Shown in pieces: positions 41,175 through 57,869 of a stretch of DNA of 64,000 bases. Under the pieces are notes generated by a model. The model saw only the letters and a list, made by a program, of their open reading frames with translations. It did no database searches and was not told the origin of the DNA. How positions within the stretch are numbered: position 1 is the stretch's first letter; each line of letters starts with the position of its first letter. This DNA comes from Acidobacteriota bacterium (GTDB taxonomy: Bacteria; Acidobacteriota; Vicinamibacteria; Vicinamibacterales; CAVVIG01), in contig JACPZW010000085.1 of assembly GCA_016195265.1 (NCBI GenBank), positions 1 to 64,000 of the forward strand, given 5' to 3'. The position numbers were made by a program, and so were the translations under genes.

Positions 41175-43619
41175 ATGACAAGTGATGTGAAGTTCGCGCT
41201 GCGGTCGCTGATGCGGGTCAAGGGGCTCGCCATGACGGTCGTGCTGACGCTCGCCCTCGGCATCGGCGCCAACGCCGCCATCTTCAGCATCGTCCGCGGC
41301 GTGCTGCTGCGCCCGCTCGTCAACAAGGACGAGGCGCACCTCGTCTATATCCGCCAGAGTGCGCCAGGCGTCGGCACGGAGAACACGGCGTTTTCCGTTC
41401 CCGAGATCGACGATCTGCGCGCCGGCTTGAAAAACGTCACGGGTCTTTGCGGCTTTTCGACGATCGGATTCACGATGGTCGGCCTCGGCGATCCACAGCA
41501 GGTGCGCGCGGGCGTGGTCGACGGCGCGTACTTCGACACCATGGGCCTGCACCCGGTACTGGGACGGTTGATCAACGCGGGCGACGATGGGCCGAGCGCG
41601 GCGGGCGTGGCGGTCCTCACGCATCGCTTCTGGTCGACGACGCTTCACGCGGATCCGGGCGTCATCGGCAAACAGATTCGTCTCGGCGCGCGGTCGGCGA
41701 CGGTCATCGGTGTCCTTGAGCCGTCGGTCCCCTATCCCTCCGAAACGGAGCTGATCGCGAACGTTGTGACGAGCCCGCATCACTTGTCCGCGACGATGGT
41801 CACGGGCCGCGAGCACCGGATGACGGAAGTCTTCGGCCGCCTCGCGCCGGGCACGGAACTGGACCAGGCGCGCGCGGAGCTGGCGACCGTGTACGGCGGC
41901 ATGGTCCAGTCGCACCCCGAGTCGTATCAGAAGAAGGCGAACTTCACGATCAACGCGGTGCGGCTGCGCGATCAGATCACGTCGAAGGCGCGCACGGTGC
42001 TGCTCGTGCTGCTGGCGGCGTCGGGTTTGATGTTCATCATCGCGTGCTCGAACGTCGCGAACCTGATCCTCGCGCGGACCGTGCGTCGCGAGTCGGAGCT
42101 CGCCGTCAGGACGGCTCTCGGCGCATCGACTAGCGCGTTGCGTCGAACGCTGCTGGCGGAGTCGCTCGTGTTGTGCGGCGCGGGCGGACTGCTCGGCGTG
42201 GCAATCGCGCAGCCGATGGTGACCGTGCTTTCGCGCTACGCGGCGCGCTTCTCGGTGCGCGCGCTCGATCTGCAGCTCGACTGGACGATGATCGCGGTCG
42301 GCGTTGGCCTGGCGCTGGCGTCGGCGGTCCTGCTCGCGTTCGTGCCGCGCCTGCCCTCGACCGATTCGACGAACGGCCTCGGCCTCGCCAACGGCAGTCC
42401 GCGGACGACGGGCACGGCGAATCGCAAGCTGCGCGCGTTCGCCGTCGTGCAGGTGGCCGCGTGCTTCATGCTGCTCGCCGGCGCCGGCATGCTGCTGCGC
42501 ACGCTGATGACGCTGCAGGCGTCGAATCCGGGCTTCGAAACGCGGAGTGTGCTGGCGATCAACGTGCCGGTGATGTCGTACGGGAAGACGGGCGACCAGA
42601 TTCGCGAGTTTTACCGCGAGATGCGGCGGCGCGTGACCGACATTCCTGGCGTCGCGCAGGTGGCCATCGGCGGCGCAGTGCCGTGGCGCGACCTCGGCAA
42701 CTTCGGTCAGGGTCTCGCGTTCACGGTCGAAGGGTGGAGGCGCGGCAAGGACGAGGACGACCCGCACGGCAAGTCGCGGTCGATTTCGCCGGGCTTCTTC
42801 GCGGCGCTCAACATCCCGATTCTGGAAGGGCGCGATTTCACGGACGCCGATCGCAACAGCACGGAAAGCGTGGTGATCGTCAGCGCCGCGCTGGCGCAGC
42901 GGCTCTTTCCCGGCCAGAGCGTGCTGAACCGCCACTTGAACTGGACCGATCCGGTCATCAAGTTCATCGGCGTGAGCGCGGAGCCGCGACGCATCGTCGG
43001 CATCGCCGCGGACATCAACGACGAGCAGATCGGCGGCGCGCCGACGATGATCATCTACCAGCCGTTCGAGCAGGCCACCGGCGGCGGGCGGCTGTTCGTC
43101 CACGCGCGGACGGATCCGTACGCGCTCGTGCCGCTGATCACGAAGACCGTGCGCGACATGGCGGCCGACCAGCCGATCGAGCGCGCGGCGACGCTCGAAG
43201 ACGTGCGCGCCGAAGTGCTGTCGCCGAACCGGCTGAACACGATCGTCTTCGGCGGTTTCGCGGCGGTCGCGCTGGCGATTTCGATCGTGGGCGTCGCGGG
43301 CGTGCTCGCGTTTTCCGTCAGCGCACGCATGCGCGAATTCGGGATCCGGATGGCGATCGGCTCGCAGCCGCGCGCGATTCTCACGAGCGTGCTGAAGGAA
43401 GGCGCGTGGATGGCCGGGCTGGGCGTCGTGTGCGGGGCCGTCGGCGGATTCGCGATGTCGCGCGTGATTGGCAGCATGATCAGTGATGTTCAGCTGCCGG
43501 GGCCGCTGCCGACGATCGGCGCCGCGCTCGTGCTGCTCGGCGCGGCTATCGTCGCCGCGGTGTGGCCGGCCGCGCGGGCCGCGCGGGTCGACGTCGTCCA
43601 GGCGTTGCGCGCCGAGTAG
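41175..43619 (+). CDS. MacB/FtsX-family ABC transporter permease (acidobacterial orphan permease type)
   Basis: 814 residues, complete. The N-terminal helix (VLTLALGIGANAAIFSIVRG) and MacB core are followed by the first FtsX domain (about 275-380, VRRESELAVRTALGASTSAL), a second core with FFAALNIPILEGRDFTDADR, and the last FtsX domain (about 680-814, MREFGIRMAIGSQPRAIL, ending VDVVQALRAE). No ATPase is adjacent. The start ATG has only a weak GAG upstream. A TAGAAT -10-like box (41120) and a hairpin lie in the leader. Serves as the intact reference for the broken copy at 35386. Confidence 0.9.
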   Translation: MTSDVKFALRSLMRVKGLAMTVVLTLALGIGANAAIFSIVRGVLLRPLVNKDEAHLVYIRQSAPGVGTENTAFSVPEIDDLRAGLKNVTGLCGFSTIGFTMVGLGDPQQVRAGVVDGAYFDTMGLHPVLGRLINAGDDGPSAAGVAVLTHRFWSTTLHADPGVIGKQIRLGARSATVIGVLEPSVPYPSETELIANVVTSPHHLSATMVTGREHRMTEVFGRLAPGTELDQARAELATVYGGMVQSHPESYQKKANFTINAVRLRDQITSKARTVLLVLLAASGLMFIIACSNVANLILARTVRRESELAVRTALGASTSALRRTLLAESLVLCGAGGLLGVAIAQPMVTVLSRYAARFSVRALDLQLDWTMIAVGVGLALASAVLLAFVPRLPSTDSTNGLGLANGSPRTTGTANRKLRAFAVVQVAACFMLLAGAGMLLRTLMTLQASNPGFETRSVLAINVPVMSYGKTGDQIREFYREMRRRVTDIPGVAQVAIGGAVPWRDLGNFGQGLAFTVEGWRRGKDEDDPHGKSRSISPGFFAALNIPILEGRDFTDADRNSTESVVIVSAALAQRLFPGQSVLNRHLNWTDPVIKFIGVSAEPRRIVGIAADINDEQIGGAPTMIIYQPFEQATGGGRLFVHARTDPYALVPLITKTVRDMAADQPIERAATLEDVRAEVLSPNRLNTIVFGGFAAVALAISIVGVAGVLAFSVSARMREFGIRMAIGSQPRAILTSVLKEGAWMAGLGVVCGAVGGFAMSRVIGSMISDVQLPGPLPTIGAALVLLGAAIVAAVWPAARAARVDVVQALRAE

Positions 43620-43644: not shown

Positions 43645-43755
43645 TGGCGTCCGGCTTTAGCCGGACCTCGGGCGGTGTGGCGTCCGGCTTCCCGCCTGCG
43701 CCCGGCTTCGGCGTGGCCCGCCATAGCGCAACGCGCGGAGGCGGCAGCCGGACGG
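43645..43755. repeat. Composite repeat with GGCGTCCGGCTT and GCGCAACGCGCGGAGGCGGCAGCCG modules
   Basis: Contains the hairpin GGCGTCCGGCTTTAGCCGGACCTC, then TGGCGTCCGGCTTCCCGCCTGCGCCCGGCTTCGGCGTGGC (partly palindromic) and GCGCAACGCGCGGAGGCGGCAGCCG. A second copy of the latter two modules is inside the gene at 44537. Confidence 0.8.
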
Positions 43756-43758
43756 CGC

Positions 43759-43764
43759 TACAAT
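43759..43764 (+). promoter_or_regulatory. -10-like box upstream of the two-gene nucleotidyltransferase module
   Basis: TACAAT 8 bp before ATG 43773; no ribosome-binding site lies in between, so the first gene may be leaderless. Confidence 0.35.
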
Positions 43765-43772
43765 TCGAGTAG

Positions 43773-44030
43773 ATGCCTGATTCGCGAGACGCGCCTCGCG
43801 CCGACACGAGCAAGATATCCGGCCGCGACTCAGCCACCGGCCTGTCGTGGGCACTCGAGTCTCCCGAGCAGCACTGGGCCGAGCACGACGCGCGCCAGCT
43901 CGCGTACTGGCGCACTCGATCGCCGGAAGAGCGCCTCGCGCAAGCAGCGGAGTACCGCTGGCGCCGGCACGGCGATATTCCGGAGCCGGCGGTCTGGACC
44001 TGGCGCTTCCTGCCGCCAGGCGAGCAGTAG
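43773..44030 (+). CDS. Small hydrophilic protein paired with a nucleotidyltransferase
   Basis: 85 residues, rich in Trp, Arg and Glu (LSWALESPEQHWAEHDARQL, AYWRTRSPEERLAQAAEYRW). I do not recognise a family; the predicted structure is mostly helical. Its stop codon TAG is immediately followed by the ATG of the nucleotidyltransferase gene (TAGATG), so they are translationally linked. The pairing resembles a toxin-antitoxin or modifier-target unit; this is an inference from gene order only. Confidence 0.6.
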   Translation: MPDSRDAPRADTSKISGRDSATGLSWALESPEQHWAEHDARQLAYWRTRSPEERLAQAAEYRWRRHGDIPEPAVWTWRFLPPGEQ

Positions 44031-44519
44031 ATGGTGGCAGCGCGGCCGCCGTCTCCTTCCTTCGTGCGCCTGTGCGAGTGTCTCAACCACGCCAGCGTCG
44101 AATTCGTCGTCGTCGGAAGTGAGGCCGTGGCGTTCCACGGCGTGCCCCGCTATAGCCTCGACTTCGACATCTTCGTGCGCTCCACGAGGGTGAACCTGTT
44201 TCGGGTGAAAGCCGGGCTCGATATGTTCGGCTTTGCCGATCTTACGAAGACGCTGGATCCTGAAGTGTGGGCACGGACGCGCCATACGCTGCGGCTGGGA
44301 GAGCCGCCGCTGCAGATCGATGTGCTCCTGCAGTTGAGCGGCGTGGAATATGAAGCGGTCGGGCGTTCGGCCATCGCCGGCAGCTACGGCGACGTGCGGG
44401 TGCGGTTCATGGCACGCGCGGATTTGATCGTCAACAAGCGCGCCGCCGGCCGCGCGAAGGATCTGGCGGACGTCGAGGCGCTCGAGTCCGCATCAGGGAC
44501 TGCCGAAGGCGAAGAGTAG
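44031..44519 (+). CDS. Nucleotidyltransferase-fold protein (DUF6036/MNT-like)
   Basis: 162 residues starting directly after the previous stop. The Pol-beta nucleotidyltransferase motif is FVVVGSEAVAFHG (G-S helix) followed by YSLDFDIFVR (DxD metal site). The second half includes PPLQIDVLLQLSGVEYEAVG, with the third Asp (QIDV), and KRAAGRAKDLADVEALE, which is typical of AbiEii/DUF6036-type proteins. These act as tRNA- or protein-modifying toxins in some systems. The partner protein could be the antitoxin. It has no obvious HEPN neighbour. Confidence 0.75.
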   Translation: MVAARPPSPSFVRLCECLNHASVEFVVVGSEAVAFHGVPRYSLDFDIFVRSTRVNLFRVKAGLDMFGFADLTKTLDPEVWARTRHTLRLGEPPLQIDVLLQLSGVEYEAVGRSAIAGSYGDVRVRFMARADLIVNKRAAGRAKDLADVEALESASGTAEGEE

Positions 44520-44536
44520 TACGGTTCGGACGGCGG

Positions 44537-44944
44537 CTATCGTCGCCGCGGTTTGGCCCGCGGTGCTTTCCTTGACCGCCGTAGCCTTGGCGTAGGCGGT
44601 TTCGGCGCCGTCTTTTTCGCCGGAGTCTTTTTCGCCGTCGCCTTGCGGCGCGCCACCTGCTTCGGCTTCGCGGCGTTCGGCGCGGCGTCAGTCGGCTGCG
44701 TGGCGTCCGGCTTCCCGCCTGCGCCAGGCTTCGGCGTGGCGCGCCGTAGCGCAACGCGCGGAGGCGGCAGCCGTACCGGCTCGTCCACGGAAATCCCCTT
44801 CGCCCGCCTCTCGATACGCGACGGATCGAGCACGTCGAGCAGACCGTCGTAGACTTCCTTCGCCCTGGAATCCGGAACTCCGCTCGCGATCCGCTCGCGC
44901 AGGTAGTTCGTGGCGGCGAGGATGTTCAGGTGCTGCCAGTTCAC
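44537..44944 (-). CDS. Small protein with histone H1-like basic tail, partly repeat-derived
   Basis: 135 residues from GTG 44944. Residues 1-55 (MNWQHLNILAATNYLRERIA, then SGVPDSRAKEVYDGLLDVLD) look like the original globular part. Residues about 57-85 (VRLPPPRVALRRATPKPGAG) are the translation of a dispersed repeat that is also found at 43645. The rest is a KA/KP-rich tail (KKTPAKKTAPK) with a fragment from a second palindrome family (TPRLRRSRKAP). Suggested function: none beyond nucleic-acid affinity of the tail. A TACAGT box 7 bp before the GTG suggests a leaderless start. Confidence 0.55.
   Translation of the reverse strand: MNWQHLNILAATNYLRERIASGVPDSRAKEVYDGLLDVLDPSRIERRAKGISVDEPVRLPPPRVALRRATPKPGAGGKPDATQPTDAAPNAAKPKQVARRKATAKKTPAKKTAPKPPTPRLRRSRKAPRAKPRRR
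44700..44772. repeat. Composite repeat inside a coding sequence (same family as 43645)
   Basis: GTGGCGTCCGGCTTCCCGCCTGCGCCAGGCTTCGGCGTGGCGCGCCGTAGCGCAACGCGCGGAGGCGGCAGCCG differs by only a few bases from the intergenic copy about 1 kb upstream. Confidence 0.8.
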
Positions 44945-45033: not shown

Positions 45034-45231
45034 CTACGGCCTCAGGCGCGGACCGTGCAGTCGGCGAGCCCCCCAGAGCGCCCGAACGATAACGTGCTGT
45101 TCGTCGAACGTGTAGTAGAGATGACAGGCGACGAAGACCTCGACGTGGATCCTGTTCTCGAGCCACCACTGCTTCTCGCGTTTGACGTGCCTGCGCGCCG
45201 TCGCCGTGAATCGAACGCGGCGCGGCGTCAA
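45034..45231 (-). CDS. ParE/RelE-superfamily toxin with an internal deletion
   Basis: 65 residues from a TTG overlapping the antitoxin stop (TTGA). The N-terminal part (VRFTATARRHVKREKQWWLE) and C-terminal part (VACHLYYTFDEQHVIVRALW, GARR) are the two ends of a ParE toxin, joined at RIHVEVF/VACHL. A normal ParE is about 95-105 residues, so about 35 residues that hold two helices and a strand are missing in frame. It is unlikely to be toxic. The deletion leaves the operon order and frame intact. Confidence 0.75.
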   Translation of the reverse strand: MTPRRVRFTATARRHVKREKQWWLENRIHVEVFVACHLYYTFDEQHVIVRALWGARRLHGPRLRP

Positions 45232-45452
45232 CGCGATCTGAGGTCTTTCAGGATTTCTTCAGCGTCGATAAGGCGACCGGTGGCCACATCTGCATCGGAC
45301 TCGCGCAGGGCTTCGTGCAGTGCGGTCCGATCGGCATCATCGAGCCAGTCGCCTGGATCGAGCGCCAGGAGCTGCATTTCGGTGCCCTCGGGCAAGTCCG
45401 TCGGCTCGTCGACCACGAGTCGGCCGGCGTGGACGCGCGCCTTGATCGTCAT
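45228..45452 (-). CDS. ParD-like antitoxin
   Basis: 74 residues beginning MTIKARVHAGRLVVDEPTDL, a beta-strand N-terminal region like AbrB/ParD-type antitoxins, then an acidic helical C-terminal part (DDADRTALHEALRESDADVA, TGRLIDAEEILKDLRSR) that would wrap the toxin. It overlaps the toxin gene by 4 bp. Such antitoxins bind their own promoter; no operator was identified upstream. The pair is a decayed type II toxin-antitoxin system because the toxin is shortened. Confidence 0.75.
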   Translation of the reverse strand: MTIKARVHAGRLVVDEPTDLPEGTEMQLLALDPGDWLDDADRTALHEALRESDADVATGRLIDAEEILKDLRSR

Positions 45453-55736: not shown

Positions 55737-55909
55737 GTAGGGCGGGTCCTTTTGGACCCGCCACAGTGTTCTAGATCTGTAGGGCGGGTCCTTTGGACCC
55801 GCCACAGCGCTCAGCCGGGTCCGAACCGCTTTCGCCACGGCTACAGCGGTCAAGAAGGACCCGGCCTACTCCCGCAGATCAGTAGGGCGGGTCCTTTCGG
55901 ACCCGCCTG
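55737..55909. repeat. Array of GGGTCC-type palindromes with a nested CCGCTTTCGCCACGGCTACAGCGG unit
   Basis: Four or so TAGGGCGGGTCC..GGACCCGCC units, one half unit joined to ACCGCTTTCGCCACGGCTACAGCGGTC, and one TAGGCCGGGTCC end that supplies the stop of the glycosyltransferase-methyltransferase gene. The final units read into its last codons. Confidence 0.8.
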
Positions 55910-57869
55910 CCAGCCAAGCCGCCAGATCTTCATGACCGACGATCATCCGCGATCGTCCGGCCGCGACGTGTGCGAGGCGACGCGCACGCCAGTCCGCAAT
56001 CACATCCGCGCGCGCGGGTTCGATCGCGACGGCGGCTCGCGCCCAGCCGTCGATCAACTGCTCCTGCAGGTCGCGCGATTCGGGCGTCAGTTCCCAATCG
56101 CTGCGCTCGCGCCGCACTTCATAGCCACGCTCGGTGAAACAGCGCCCCGCCGCACCCGCTGCGTCGGGCCCGAGCGCGGGCCCGAATCCCTTGTCGGTCC
56201 GCTGATGCCGGTTGACGAGATCGCGGACGAATTCATCGTCGCGTTCGGCCGGCGAGCACTCGATTCGGCCGTCGTACGTCAGTGAGAACAGGACGGCCGA
56301 GCGATTCGCGGCGCACTGCTCCGCCAGCGCGCGGAGCCAGGATTCGGAGACGAGGTCGAGCAGCGCAGACGCCGTCACCAGATGGCGACCCGCGAACACG
56401 TCACCGAGGACCCTGAGATCGGCCGCGTGTGTCTTCGCCGACGGAACGCGCACGGACGCTCGCGCGAGCAGGCTCGGGTCATGGTCCACGAGCAGCCAGT
56501 CCTGCTCGGACGTTGGCAGTCGAGCGATCAGGTACCGCGCATTCGCGCCGGTGCCGGCGCCGAGATCGAGGATGCGCAGCGGCCGCGCCCGCGGCAGCCC
56601 GTCCGCGATCGCGCGCGTCAGCGCAGCGGACCGCGCCGCGGTGTCCGCTGGCTCACGCAGCGCCAGCCAGTCGGCGCTGAAGATGGCGTCGTGGCGGGTC
56701 CGCACGACCCGCCCTGCATCCGCAGTGTCCACGGACAGCGCGGCCGCCATCTTCTCCACCTGCTGATCCCACGTCGGAATTCGATCTCGCGCGAGCTGAG
56801 CGCCATGCGTCAATTGCGCGCGGAGGTTCGCGTCGGTCAGCACGCGTGTCAACGCGGACGCTAATGCGTCTGCATCGCCGGGCGGGACGAGAAGGCCCGC
56901 ATCGCGACCGACGAGTTCTTCGATGCCGCCGGTCGGCGTGCTGATTACCGGCACGCCGTGCGCAAGCGCTTCGGCGACGACCATGCCGTAGCCCTCGTAC
57001 AGCGTCGGCAGGACGAACAGGTCCGCGCGCGCGTACTCGGCGTCGAGCGCGGCGCCGGACATCTCGCCGGCGAATGTCACACGACCTTCGAGTCCGTCGG
57101 CGCGCACCTGCGCGCGCAGCCGCGCGGCCGTCGCCGGATCGCGATCGAGACCGCCGACGCACGTCAGCCGCCACGGAAGATCCCGCAGCATCGCGAGCGC
57201 GCGAAACAAAACGTCGTGACCTTTGCGCGGGGAGAGAGTCGCTACGCACAGCAGACGGAAGTTGGGCGGGTCCTTTGGATATGTAGGGCGGGTCCTTTTG
57301 GACCCGCCGGAGCGATCAGCCGGGTCCGAAAGGACCCGGCCTACTTGGTCCCGATCTACAGGCGGGTCCGAAAGGACCCGCTCTACTGGTCTATCCGTCC
57401 CTGGCTCCACGACGACGATGCGATCGGCGGGAACGTCGTACGCCGCGAGCATGGCCGCCGTCGCGCGACTGGTAACGATGACCTTCCGCGCGCACGCGAG
57501 CGCGCGGCGCTCGCCCGCTTCGAGCGTCGCCGCCAGCGACGCGCTGATGCCGGTCTCGGCCGCAAGCGGATGATGGACGAGCGCGACGAATCGAAGCCGC
57601 CCGGCCTCGCGCTCGACCGCGGCCGGCATGGCGCCGAACGCCAGACCATCGACGAGGACGGTCGCGCCGTCCGCAATTTCGCTGAGGACGCGGGCGGCTC
57701 TGGCGAGCGCGGCCGGCGCCGGCGTGGGAAAGCTGCCGACGATCCCGCGGACCTCGACGGTCCATCCGCGATCGCGCAGCCCGGCGACGATCCGCCGGTC
57801 GTACGCGTAGCCGCCGGTCAGGGTCCGGAGATCGCCTGGAACGATTACGACGAGTGCGGCAGAGCCCAT
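55866..57869 (-). CDS. Fusion of a GT4 glycosyltransferase and a class I SAM methyltransferase
   Basis: 667 residues. Residues about 1-400 are a GT-B, GT4 enzyme (PGDLRTLTGGYAYDRRIV, LHVIATLSPRKGHDVLFRAL-like, PTLYEGYGMVVAEALAHGVP and the EE-type nucleotide site). About 430-640 is a Rossmann methyltransferase (RILDLGAGTGANARYLIARL). A repeat-derived insert ([35 protein letters not shown]) interrupts the GT domain near residue 160-205 at the domain hinge, and a second repeat copy is in the linker between the domains. The C terminus ([17 protein letters not shown]) is repeat-coded. It overlaps the PTPS-like gene by 25 bp. Confidence 0.85.
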   Translation of the reverse strand: MGSAALVVIVPGDLRTLTGGYAYDRRIVAGLRDRGWTVEVRGIVGSFPTPAPAALARAARVLSEIADGATVLVDGLAFGAMPAAVEREAGRLRFVALVHHPLAAETGISASLAATLEAGERRALACARKVIVTSRATAAMLAAYDVPADRIVVVEPGTDRPVERVLSDPPVDRDQVGRVLSDPADRSGGSKRTRPTYPKDPPNFRLLCVATLSPRKGHDVLFRALAMLRDLPWRLTCVGGLDRDPATAARLRAQVRADGLEGRVTFAGEMSGAALDAEYARADLFVLPTLYEGYGMVVAEALAHGVPVISTPTGGIEELVGRDAGLLVPPGDADALASALTRVLTDANLRAQLTHGAQLARDRIPTWDQQVEKMAAALSVDTADAGRVVRTRHDAIFSADWLALREPADTAARSAALTRAIADGLPRARPLRILDLGAGTGANARYLIARLPTSEQDWLLVDHDPSLLARASVRVPSAKTHAADLRVLGDVFAGRHLVTASALLDLVSESWLRALAEQCAANRSAVLFSLTYDGRIECSPAERDDEFVRDLVNRHQRTDKGFGPALGPDAAGAAGRCFTERGYEVRRERSDWELTPESRDLQEQLIDGWARAAVAIEPARADVIADWRARRLAHVAAGRSRMIVGHEDLAAWLAGGSERTRPTDLRE
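56692..56718. repeat. GGGTCC-type palindrome at the domain junction of the fusion gene
   Basis: GGCGGGTCCGCACGACCCGCCCTGC, read as AGRVVRTRHD (minus strand), located where the glycosyltransferase ends and the methyltransferase begins. Confidence 0.7.
57263..57387. repeat. Array of GGGTCC-type palindromes inside the glycosyltransferase domain
   Basis: One half unit (GGCGGGTCCTTTGGATATG) and three full units within coding sequence; reading frame preserved over about 125 bp. Confidence 0.85.

Follow-up and report, generated by a model that had tools for sequence, protein, structure and literature searches.

A GTGG-tagged REP with an enlarged loop, found between genes and in frame within genes of an acidobacterial genome

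Within the window analysed here, a stretch of 64,000 nucleotides from an Acidobacteriota bacterium, a hairpin-forming repeat is found twice at a distance of about 1 kb, once between genes and once inside an open reading frame. The locus thereby raises the question of whether the second copy really lies in coding sequence and, if so, how a mobile palindrome comes to be read as part of a protein. The answer favoured here, with a probability of about 0.85, is that the repeat is a REP with an enlarged loop, putatively mobilised by a RAYT transposase, which lands anywhere and is tolerated in frame within genes.

A nested repeat in two copies

The locus is made up of the following features, where G022 and G023 are two genomes of the same genus:

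41175..43619, plus strand: MacB/FtsX-type ABC permease, convergent with the host gene and conserved as its neighbour
43645..43666, plus strand: short REP, TTGGCGTCCGGCTTTAGCCGGAC, tag partly lost, one of the 40 exact GTCCGGCTNNAGCCGGAC hairpins of the genome
43677..43753, plus strand: long REP, intergenic copy, a GTGG tag and a CGTCCGGCTTC..core..CAGCCGGAC hairpin
43754..44532, plus strand: module absent at the G022 and G023 loci, with an ORF (43773-44030) and a DUF6036 nucleotidyltransferase (44031-44519)
44533..44566, plus strand: second copy of the permease 3' end (the first is at 43542-43575), supplying the AKPRRR and stop of the host ORF
44537..44944, minus strand: host gene, 135 aa, GTG start, with a helical conserved N-terminus (1-48) and a disordered C-terminus built of repeats
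44571..44599, plus strand: core-type repeat fragment, CCTTGACCGCCGTAGCCTTGGCGTAGGCGG, the second repeat piece in the host ORF
44700..44776, plus strand: long REP, intragenic copy, encoding residues 57-82 of the host ORF, VRLPPPRVALRRATPKPGAGGKPDAT

A repeat search of the window returns an 83-nt family with copies at 43671-43753 and 44694-44776, which are 93% identical without gaps, share the same orientation and are spaced 1023 bp apart. The element proper is 77 nt long, its bounds being set by comparison with other copies, and the two copies score 95.2 (intergenic) and 96.6 bits against model R1 (E ~1e-17). Since the next best copies in the genome reach only 78-87% identity, over shorter stretches, and the hairpin patterns give no matches in reversed controls, the pair is far beyond chance. 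The original prediction had the repeat at 43681-43750 and again about 1 kb away inside a gene, which is borne out, although the position it gave for the second copy, 44537, is the end of the ORF and the copy itself lies at 44700-44776. The translation it offered, VRLPPPRVALRRATPKPGAG, is correct, being that of the minus-strand ORF. It had passed over the short REP, which lies about 23 nt past the permease stop and adjoins the intergenic long REP, as well as the fragment at 44571-44599 and the duplicated permease 3' end. Searches of the window found no Rfam match and no tRNA.

Judged by its sequence, the 77-nt element can be classed as a GTGG-tagged REP in a nested long form, in which short-REP ends, GTGGCGTCCGGCTTNAGCCGGAC, enclose about 50 nt placed in the loop. 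The ends of the long form, GTGGCGTCCGGCT and AGCCGGAC, are those of the short hairpin repeat GTRG-yGTCCGGCTNNAGCCGGAC, and the added stretch is able to form a second stem; the stems are GTCCGGCT/AGCCGGAC and CCGCCT/AGGCGG. The intergenic copy folds as a single long imperfect hairpin. Both long REPs of the window carry GTGG and one C ahead of the stem, and the basal stem of the intragenic copy has a single change, GGAC to GTAC. Among the aligned copies the tag is GTGG in most, GTAG in one, GTCG in three and GTGT in one. The element has the features of a GTRG REP, namely a tag 0-2 nt before the hairpin, a basal stem of 7-20 nt closed by a short loop or joined to a second stem, and many dispersed copies (40 exact short copies in its own genome). 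It had been announced as a second, different family; it is a different form, but not one unrelated to the short hairpins. Covariation was rejected as proof of a selected fold, being weak (pair conservation 94.3% against 93.3% in a shuffle control, with few double changes). Among 193 genomes of the class, the strict long-REP pattern matches only in this genome and in G016, so the exact long form is narrow in its distribution; with a looser model, G019 and G022 have it as well.

The host gene and its variable segment

In-frame entry into coding sequence could not be upheld if 44537..44944 were not a gene. The ORF is a real gene, as indicated by purifying selection on its N-terminus, by homologues and by synteny with the permease. 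Comparison of the N-terminal 43 codons gives a dN/dS of 0.15 with the congener G022 and of 0.09 with the congener G023, and in both genomes the gene is likewise convergent to the same MacB-type permease. Homologues at E <= 0.001 occur in 13 of 27 family genomes, a tally part of which matches the repeat only, and the N-terminus, MNWQHLNILAATNYLRERIASG..., is found again in the family and in named Acidobacteria MAGs, gp6 included. Searches of the host ORF in Pfam and PADLOC gave no match, and none of the family profiles names the protein. In the AlphaFold model three confident helices are found in residues 1-48 (pLDDT ~80-93) and the rest is without structure, with the lowest values of the model (~43-50) in the stretch encoded by the repeat. 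The tail beyond the insert is poorly conserved, and hence the case for frame preservation in this ORF rests on the shared AKPRRR end and on other genes. With a host gene thus supported and residues 57-82 encoded by the repeat, the claim that the family enters coding sequence in frame stands.

At codon 57-59 of the host gene, three congeneric orthologues carry three different repeats, each of them in frame. This genome has the long form, G023 a short form read as VRLKPDAT, and G022 a core-type repeat, PPTPRLRRSAEASREGG, in an insert of which CCTTGACCGCCGTAGCCTTGGCGTAGGCGG also forms part. The long and short forms within the gene have identical end residues, VRL...KPDAT, in the same frame, and the final residues AKPRRR are common to this genome and G023, again in the same frame. 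Such a pattern probably arose by insertion at codon 57-59 and a later exchange of repeats, leaving a different one in each sister species.

The two copies of the window need not be separate insertions. A local duplication of the stretch from the permease end to the REP, with the 0.8-kb module inserted between the copies, has a slightly better than even chance of being the correct history, in which case the intergenic copy would be what is left of the 3' part of the gene itself, or else the donor of that part. The two copies are 93% identical to each other as against 78-87% to every other copy in the genome, and the permease 3' end is doubled too, at a near-equal offset (991 versus 1023 bp). 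The second permease end matches the permease end of G023 exactly over 26 nt. The module that lies between the copies, bordered by the long REP at its left and the permease-end copy at its right, is missing from the loci of both congeners, where the permease and ORF ends overlap (in G023 it is the 3' ends of the host gene and the permease that do so). Against this, the interval from permease end to REP is not recognisably common to both copies, such that more than one event is needed, and a duplication accounts for the kinship of the copies but not for the entry of a REP into the gene. The copies are probably joined by a local duplication flanking the module rather than being the result of two unrelated hops; we infer a duplication together with an insertion, of which the long REPs would be part.

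Near the host gene, an overlapping pair of small minus-strand ORFs (45034-45231 and 45228-45452) resembles a RelE/ParE-type toxin with its antitoxin, with no match for the pair in Pfam or PADLOC.

Repeats inside other genes

The genome was searched for repeats and gene context was taken from the stretches around them, with genes called by a GC3-GC2 rule in metagenome assemblies. Model R1 was applied to 150 of the 13,993 candidates of a first look, so the count of decayed copies is a lower bound; the model gives at least 21 long or core matches in 20 places in the genome. Those well inside genes are in the window ORF, a ROK kinase, an ornithine cyclodeaminase (OCD), an Lhr helicase and a sulfatase, and relatives of the latter four have no insert or a different one. 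The 40 exact short REPs divide into 22 intergenic copies and 18 in predicted ORFs, two of which are doubtful (L182 and L209, owing to the GC3-GC2 rule); the other 16 are in genes with domain or protein-like support, 12 of them well inside and two each near the N- and the C-terminus. The 12 comprise a PD40 protein, a CarboxypepD_reg/Vgb protein, CDC48 (twice), a sortilin-like protein, AcrB, IspD-IspF, SMC, a kinase linker, a hydrolase-like protein with sequence support only, and two kinases, where the activation loop is the site. By this genome-wide scoring, insertion in frame into real genes is frequent. Where same-strand gene pairs around intergenic copies were inspected, their ends, rather than homology, showed separate genes that look complete, and no split gene. 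Since coding sequence makes up about 90% of the window, copies in genes are rarer than random landing would give, which fits a purging of those that break the frame.

At least four reading frames are in use and none is preferred. Of the 18 short copies within genes, six are read as VRLKPDA/T, five as the PAEAGH type, four as ASGFSRT and three as VRLQPD; neither of the other two frames, one of which holds a stop, was seen, and the long copies are likewise read in several frames. The lack of a preferred frame is expected if any open, length-compatible reading is tolerated.

The variation seen in the host gene has parallels in conserved proteins. In CDC48 this genome carries two short REPs and G023 two others, G022 has a loop-expanded REP, and G021 has nothing. 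In SMC a single REP is present in this genome as against two in G023; G022 has another repeat in this gene, and G006 has none. AcrB and IspD behave in the same way, with variable inserts and relatives that have no insert, and in all four proteins the insert sites are linkers or loops. The long form also occurs within BacA and an MFS transporter of G016, where the Pfam domains run across the insert, and a Pfam domain similarly spans the insert in two protein kinases of this genome.

Three alternatives bear on what these intragenic copies mean. An open frame could simply reflect the scarcity of stops in GC-rich DNA, making ORF 44537-44944 spurious: five of the six frames are mostly open in the repeat, with GC-rich genomic DNA being nearly alike, and 14% of frames contain a stop compared with 19% and 28% in two controls. 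The selection on the N-terminus, the homologues and the synteny render this highly improbable. A special depletion of stops in the repeat was itself rejected, the value being only slightly under that of equally GC-rich DNA. The repeat segments might alternatively go untranslated, through ribosome hopping over the hairpin or through the transcript ending there, with a product that has no insert, and very stable, GC-rich hairpins with short loops do sit within coding sequence. A bypass would lift the constraints on frame and stops, yet the supported intragenic copies are all in frame and stop-free, in four frames, and long conserved parts of AcrB, CDC48, SMC and the kinases beyond the insert exclude termination at those sites; this second alternative is accordingly very unlikely. 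Somewhat less improbable, but still unlikely, is that the inserts are kept because they are useful, for instance as linkers or regulatory loops such as the activation loop of the two kinases. In CDC48, SMC and ORF 44537, a given linker site is refilled with a different REP from one sister species to the next, but the variable content, the insert-free outgroups and the lowest model confidence fit a tolerance of junk in loops at least equally well, and an insert in the guanylate kinase of Rickettsia is neutral or slightly harmful (PMC2229807).

Several host proteins show peculiarities of their own. The two kinases with a REP-coded segment in the activation loop, between DFG and APE, are neighbouring Ser/Thr kinases on contig C87 of this genome (L217:1027-3000 and L218:887-2038). 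An MFS transporter and a polysaccharide deacetylase are joined in one ORF with a core-type repeat at the junction (L086:551-2821), which could be a fusion or a missed start. In the Lhr helicase (L089:2-2272 and L125) an SHQPPATS-type tandem repeat is found in the same linker of two congeners, with the palindromic core inside it only in this genome. The sulfatase of G009 and G018 (L131, L129) has other in-frame tandem repeats in linkers, GLTGRP and DQRPTT.

Probable mobilisation, and comparison with known repeats

Exact short REPs number 40 in this genome, 383 in G002, 320 in G016 and 169 in G008, with none in a reversed control. The three highest counts belong to the genomes with a REP-flanked RAYT, where RAYT (PF01797) genes have inverted short-REP copies with GTAG or GTGG tags on both sides, the same anatomy as in the REPtron of GTAG REPs (PMC3733652). 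It is the short form that flanks these genes; the long form was not found beside any RAYT gene, and the sole RAYT found in this genome (L062) is flanked by another REP family, GTAGGGCGGGTCC.... Because its ends are those of the short REP that flanks RAYT genes in relatives, the long REP, in which a secondary stem-loop of about 50 nt would have enlarged the loop, is most likely non-autonomous, with a RAYT (Y1/HUH) transposase copying it as single-stranded DNA. Insertion may take place anywhere, with selection removing the frame-breaking copies. The survivors in genes would be those in a disordered tail or surface loop that have a frame-keeping length and a stop-free frame, and these would simply be translated, with neutral or mildly costly effect. 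The GC-rich sequence keeps most frames open.

REPtrons of GTAG/GTGG REPs with RAYT/TnpAREP (PMC3733652; PMC6006769) share several traits with this family: the 5' GTRG tag lies 0-2 nt ahead of the hairpin, copies are dispersed and cluster just past gene ends, some of them are in frame within genes, and RAYT genes have inverted copies at either side (here in relatives). What sets this family apart is its 77-nt form, whose loop holds an additional stem-loop, the presence of 16 of its 40 exact short copies in supported genes, and the absence from this genome of a RAYT flanked by the GTGG-tagged family. Di Nocera et al. 2013 (PMC3733652) described in-frame REPs within genes, among them genes for replication and repair, and set hypothetical proteins of <120 aa aside because they judged them unreliable.

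In Rickettsia, palindromes that code for protein are a classical finding (Ogata et al. 2000; review, PMC2229807). As with these RPEs, the present repeat is a putatively mobile palindrome found between genes and in frame in conserved genes, and presumably translated in several unrelated proteins; in-frame insertion with insert-free orthologues is seen in ROK, OCD, Lhr, sulfatase, CDC48, SMC, AcrB and IspD. The RPEs of Rickettsia are 105-146 nt long in the review (PMC2229807), whereas the repeat here is GTRG-tagged and GC-rich and its relatives flank RAYT. The R. conorii RPE-4/6 are CGTC-tagged, and CGTC repeats have no association with a transposase gene (PMC3733652). The long REP is set apart from RPEs by lineage and GTGG tag. 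Neisserial Correia/NEMIS and enterobacterial RU/ERIC MITEs are also small, non-autonomous repeats with occasional in-frame ORF fusions (PMC2229807, PMC2759123), but the usual MITE is bounded by terminal inverted repeats that carry a TA motif and is flanked by target-site duplications (PMC2229807). Here the ends of the element are inverted repeats of each other, no TA motif is seen, and aligned empty sites show no evident target duplication. A literature search turned up no earlier account from this lineage, although this does not prove that there is none.

In-frame REPs and RPEs are thus already known, and what is new is the lineage and the nested long variant. REPs are termed extragenic, yet here about 40% of one family's exact copies lie within supported genes, and the gene hosts of these REPs of a soil or groundwater acidobacterium include SMC, CDC48, IspD, AcrB and, in their activation loops, two protein kinases. 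It may be suggested, tentatively, that REP insertion into coding sequence is a regular and continuing source of new linkers, with preferred sites refilled in each species and always in frame, such that REPs would shape proteins as well as intergenic DNA. The different repeats at the same sites in sister species form a natural series for asking whether peptides from mobile elements are neutral, harmful or useful, and could also serve to measure REP movement. The REPs also account for peptides that recur in the proteins of these bacteria, such as VRLKPDAT, VASGFSRT and PAEAGH; in annotation and in homology searches such peptides should be handled as repeat-derived.

The family that flanks this genome's own RAYT (L062) is abundant in the window, where GTAGGGCGGGTCCTTTCGGACCCGCC / GTAGGCCGGGTCC REPs occur at about 40 sites between 2974 and 62570. 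Predicted ORFs contain 8 of its 40 hairpin cores, three of them within a single 667-aa ORF (55866-57869).
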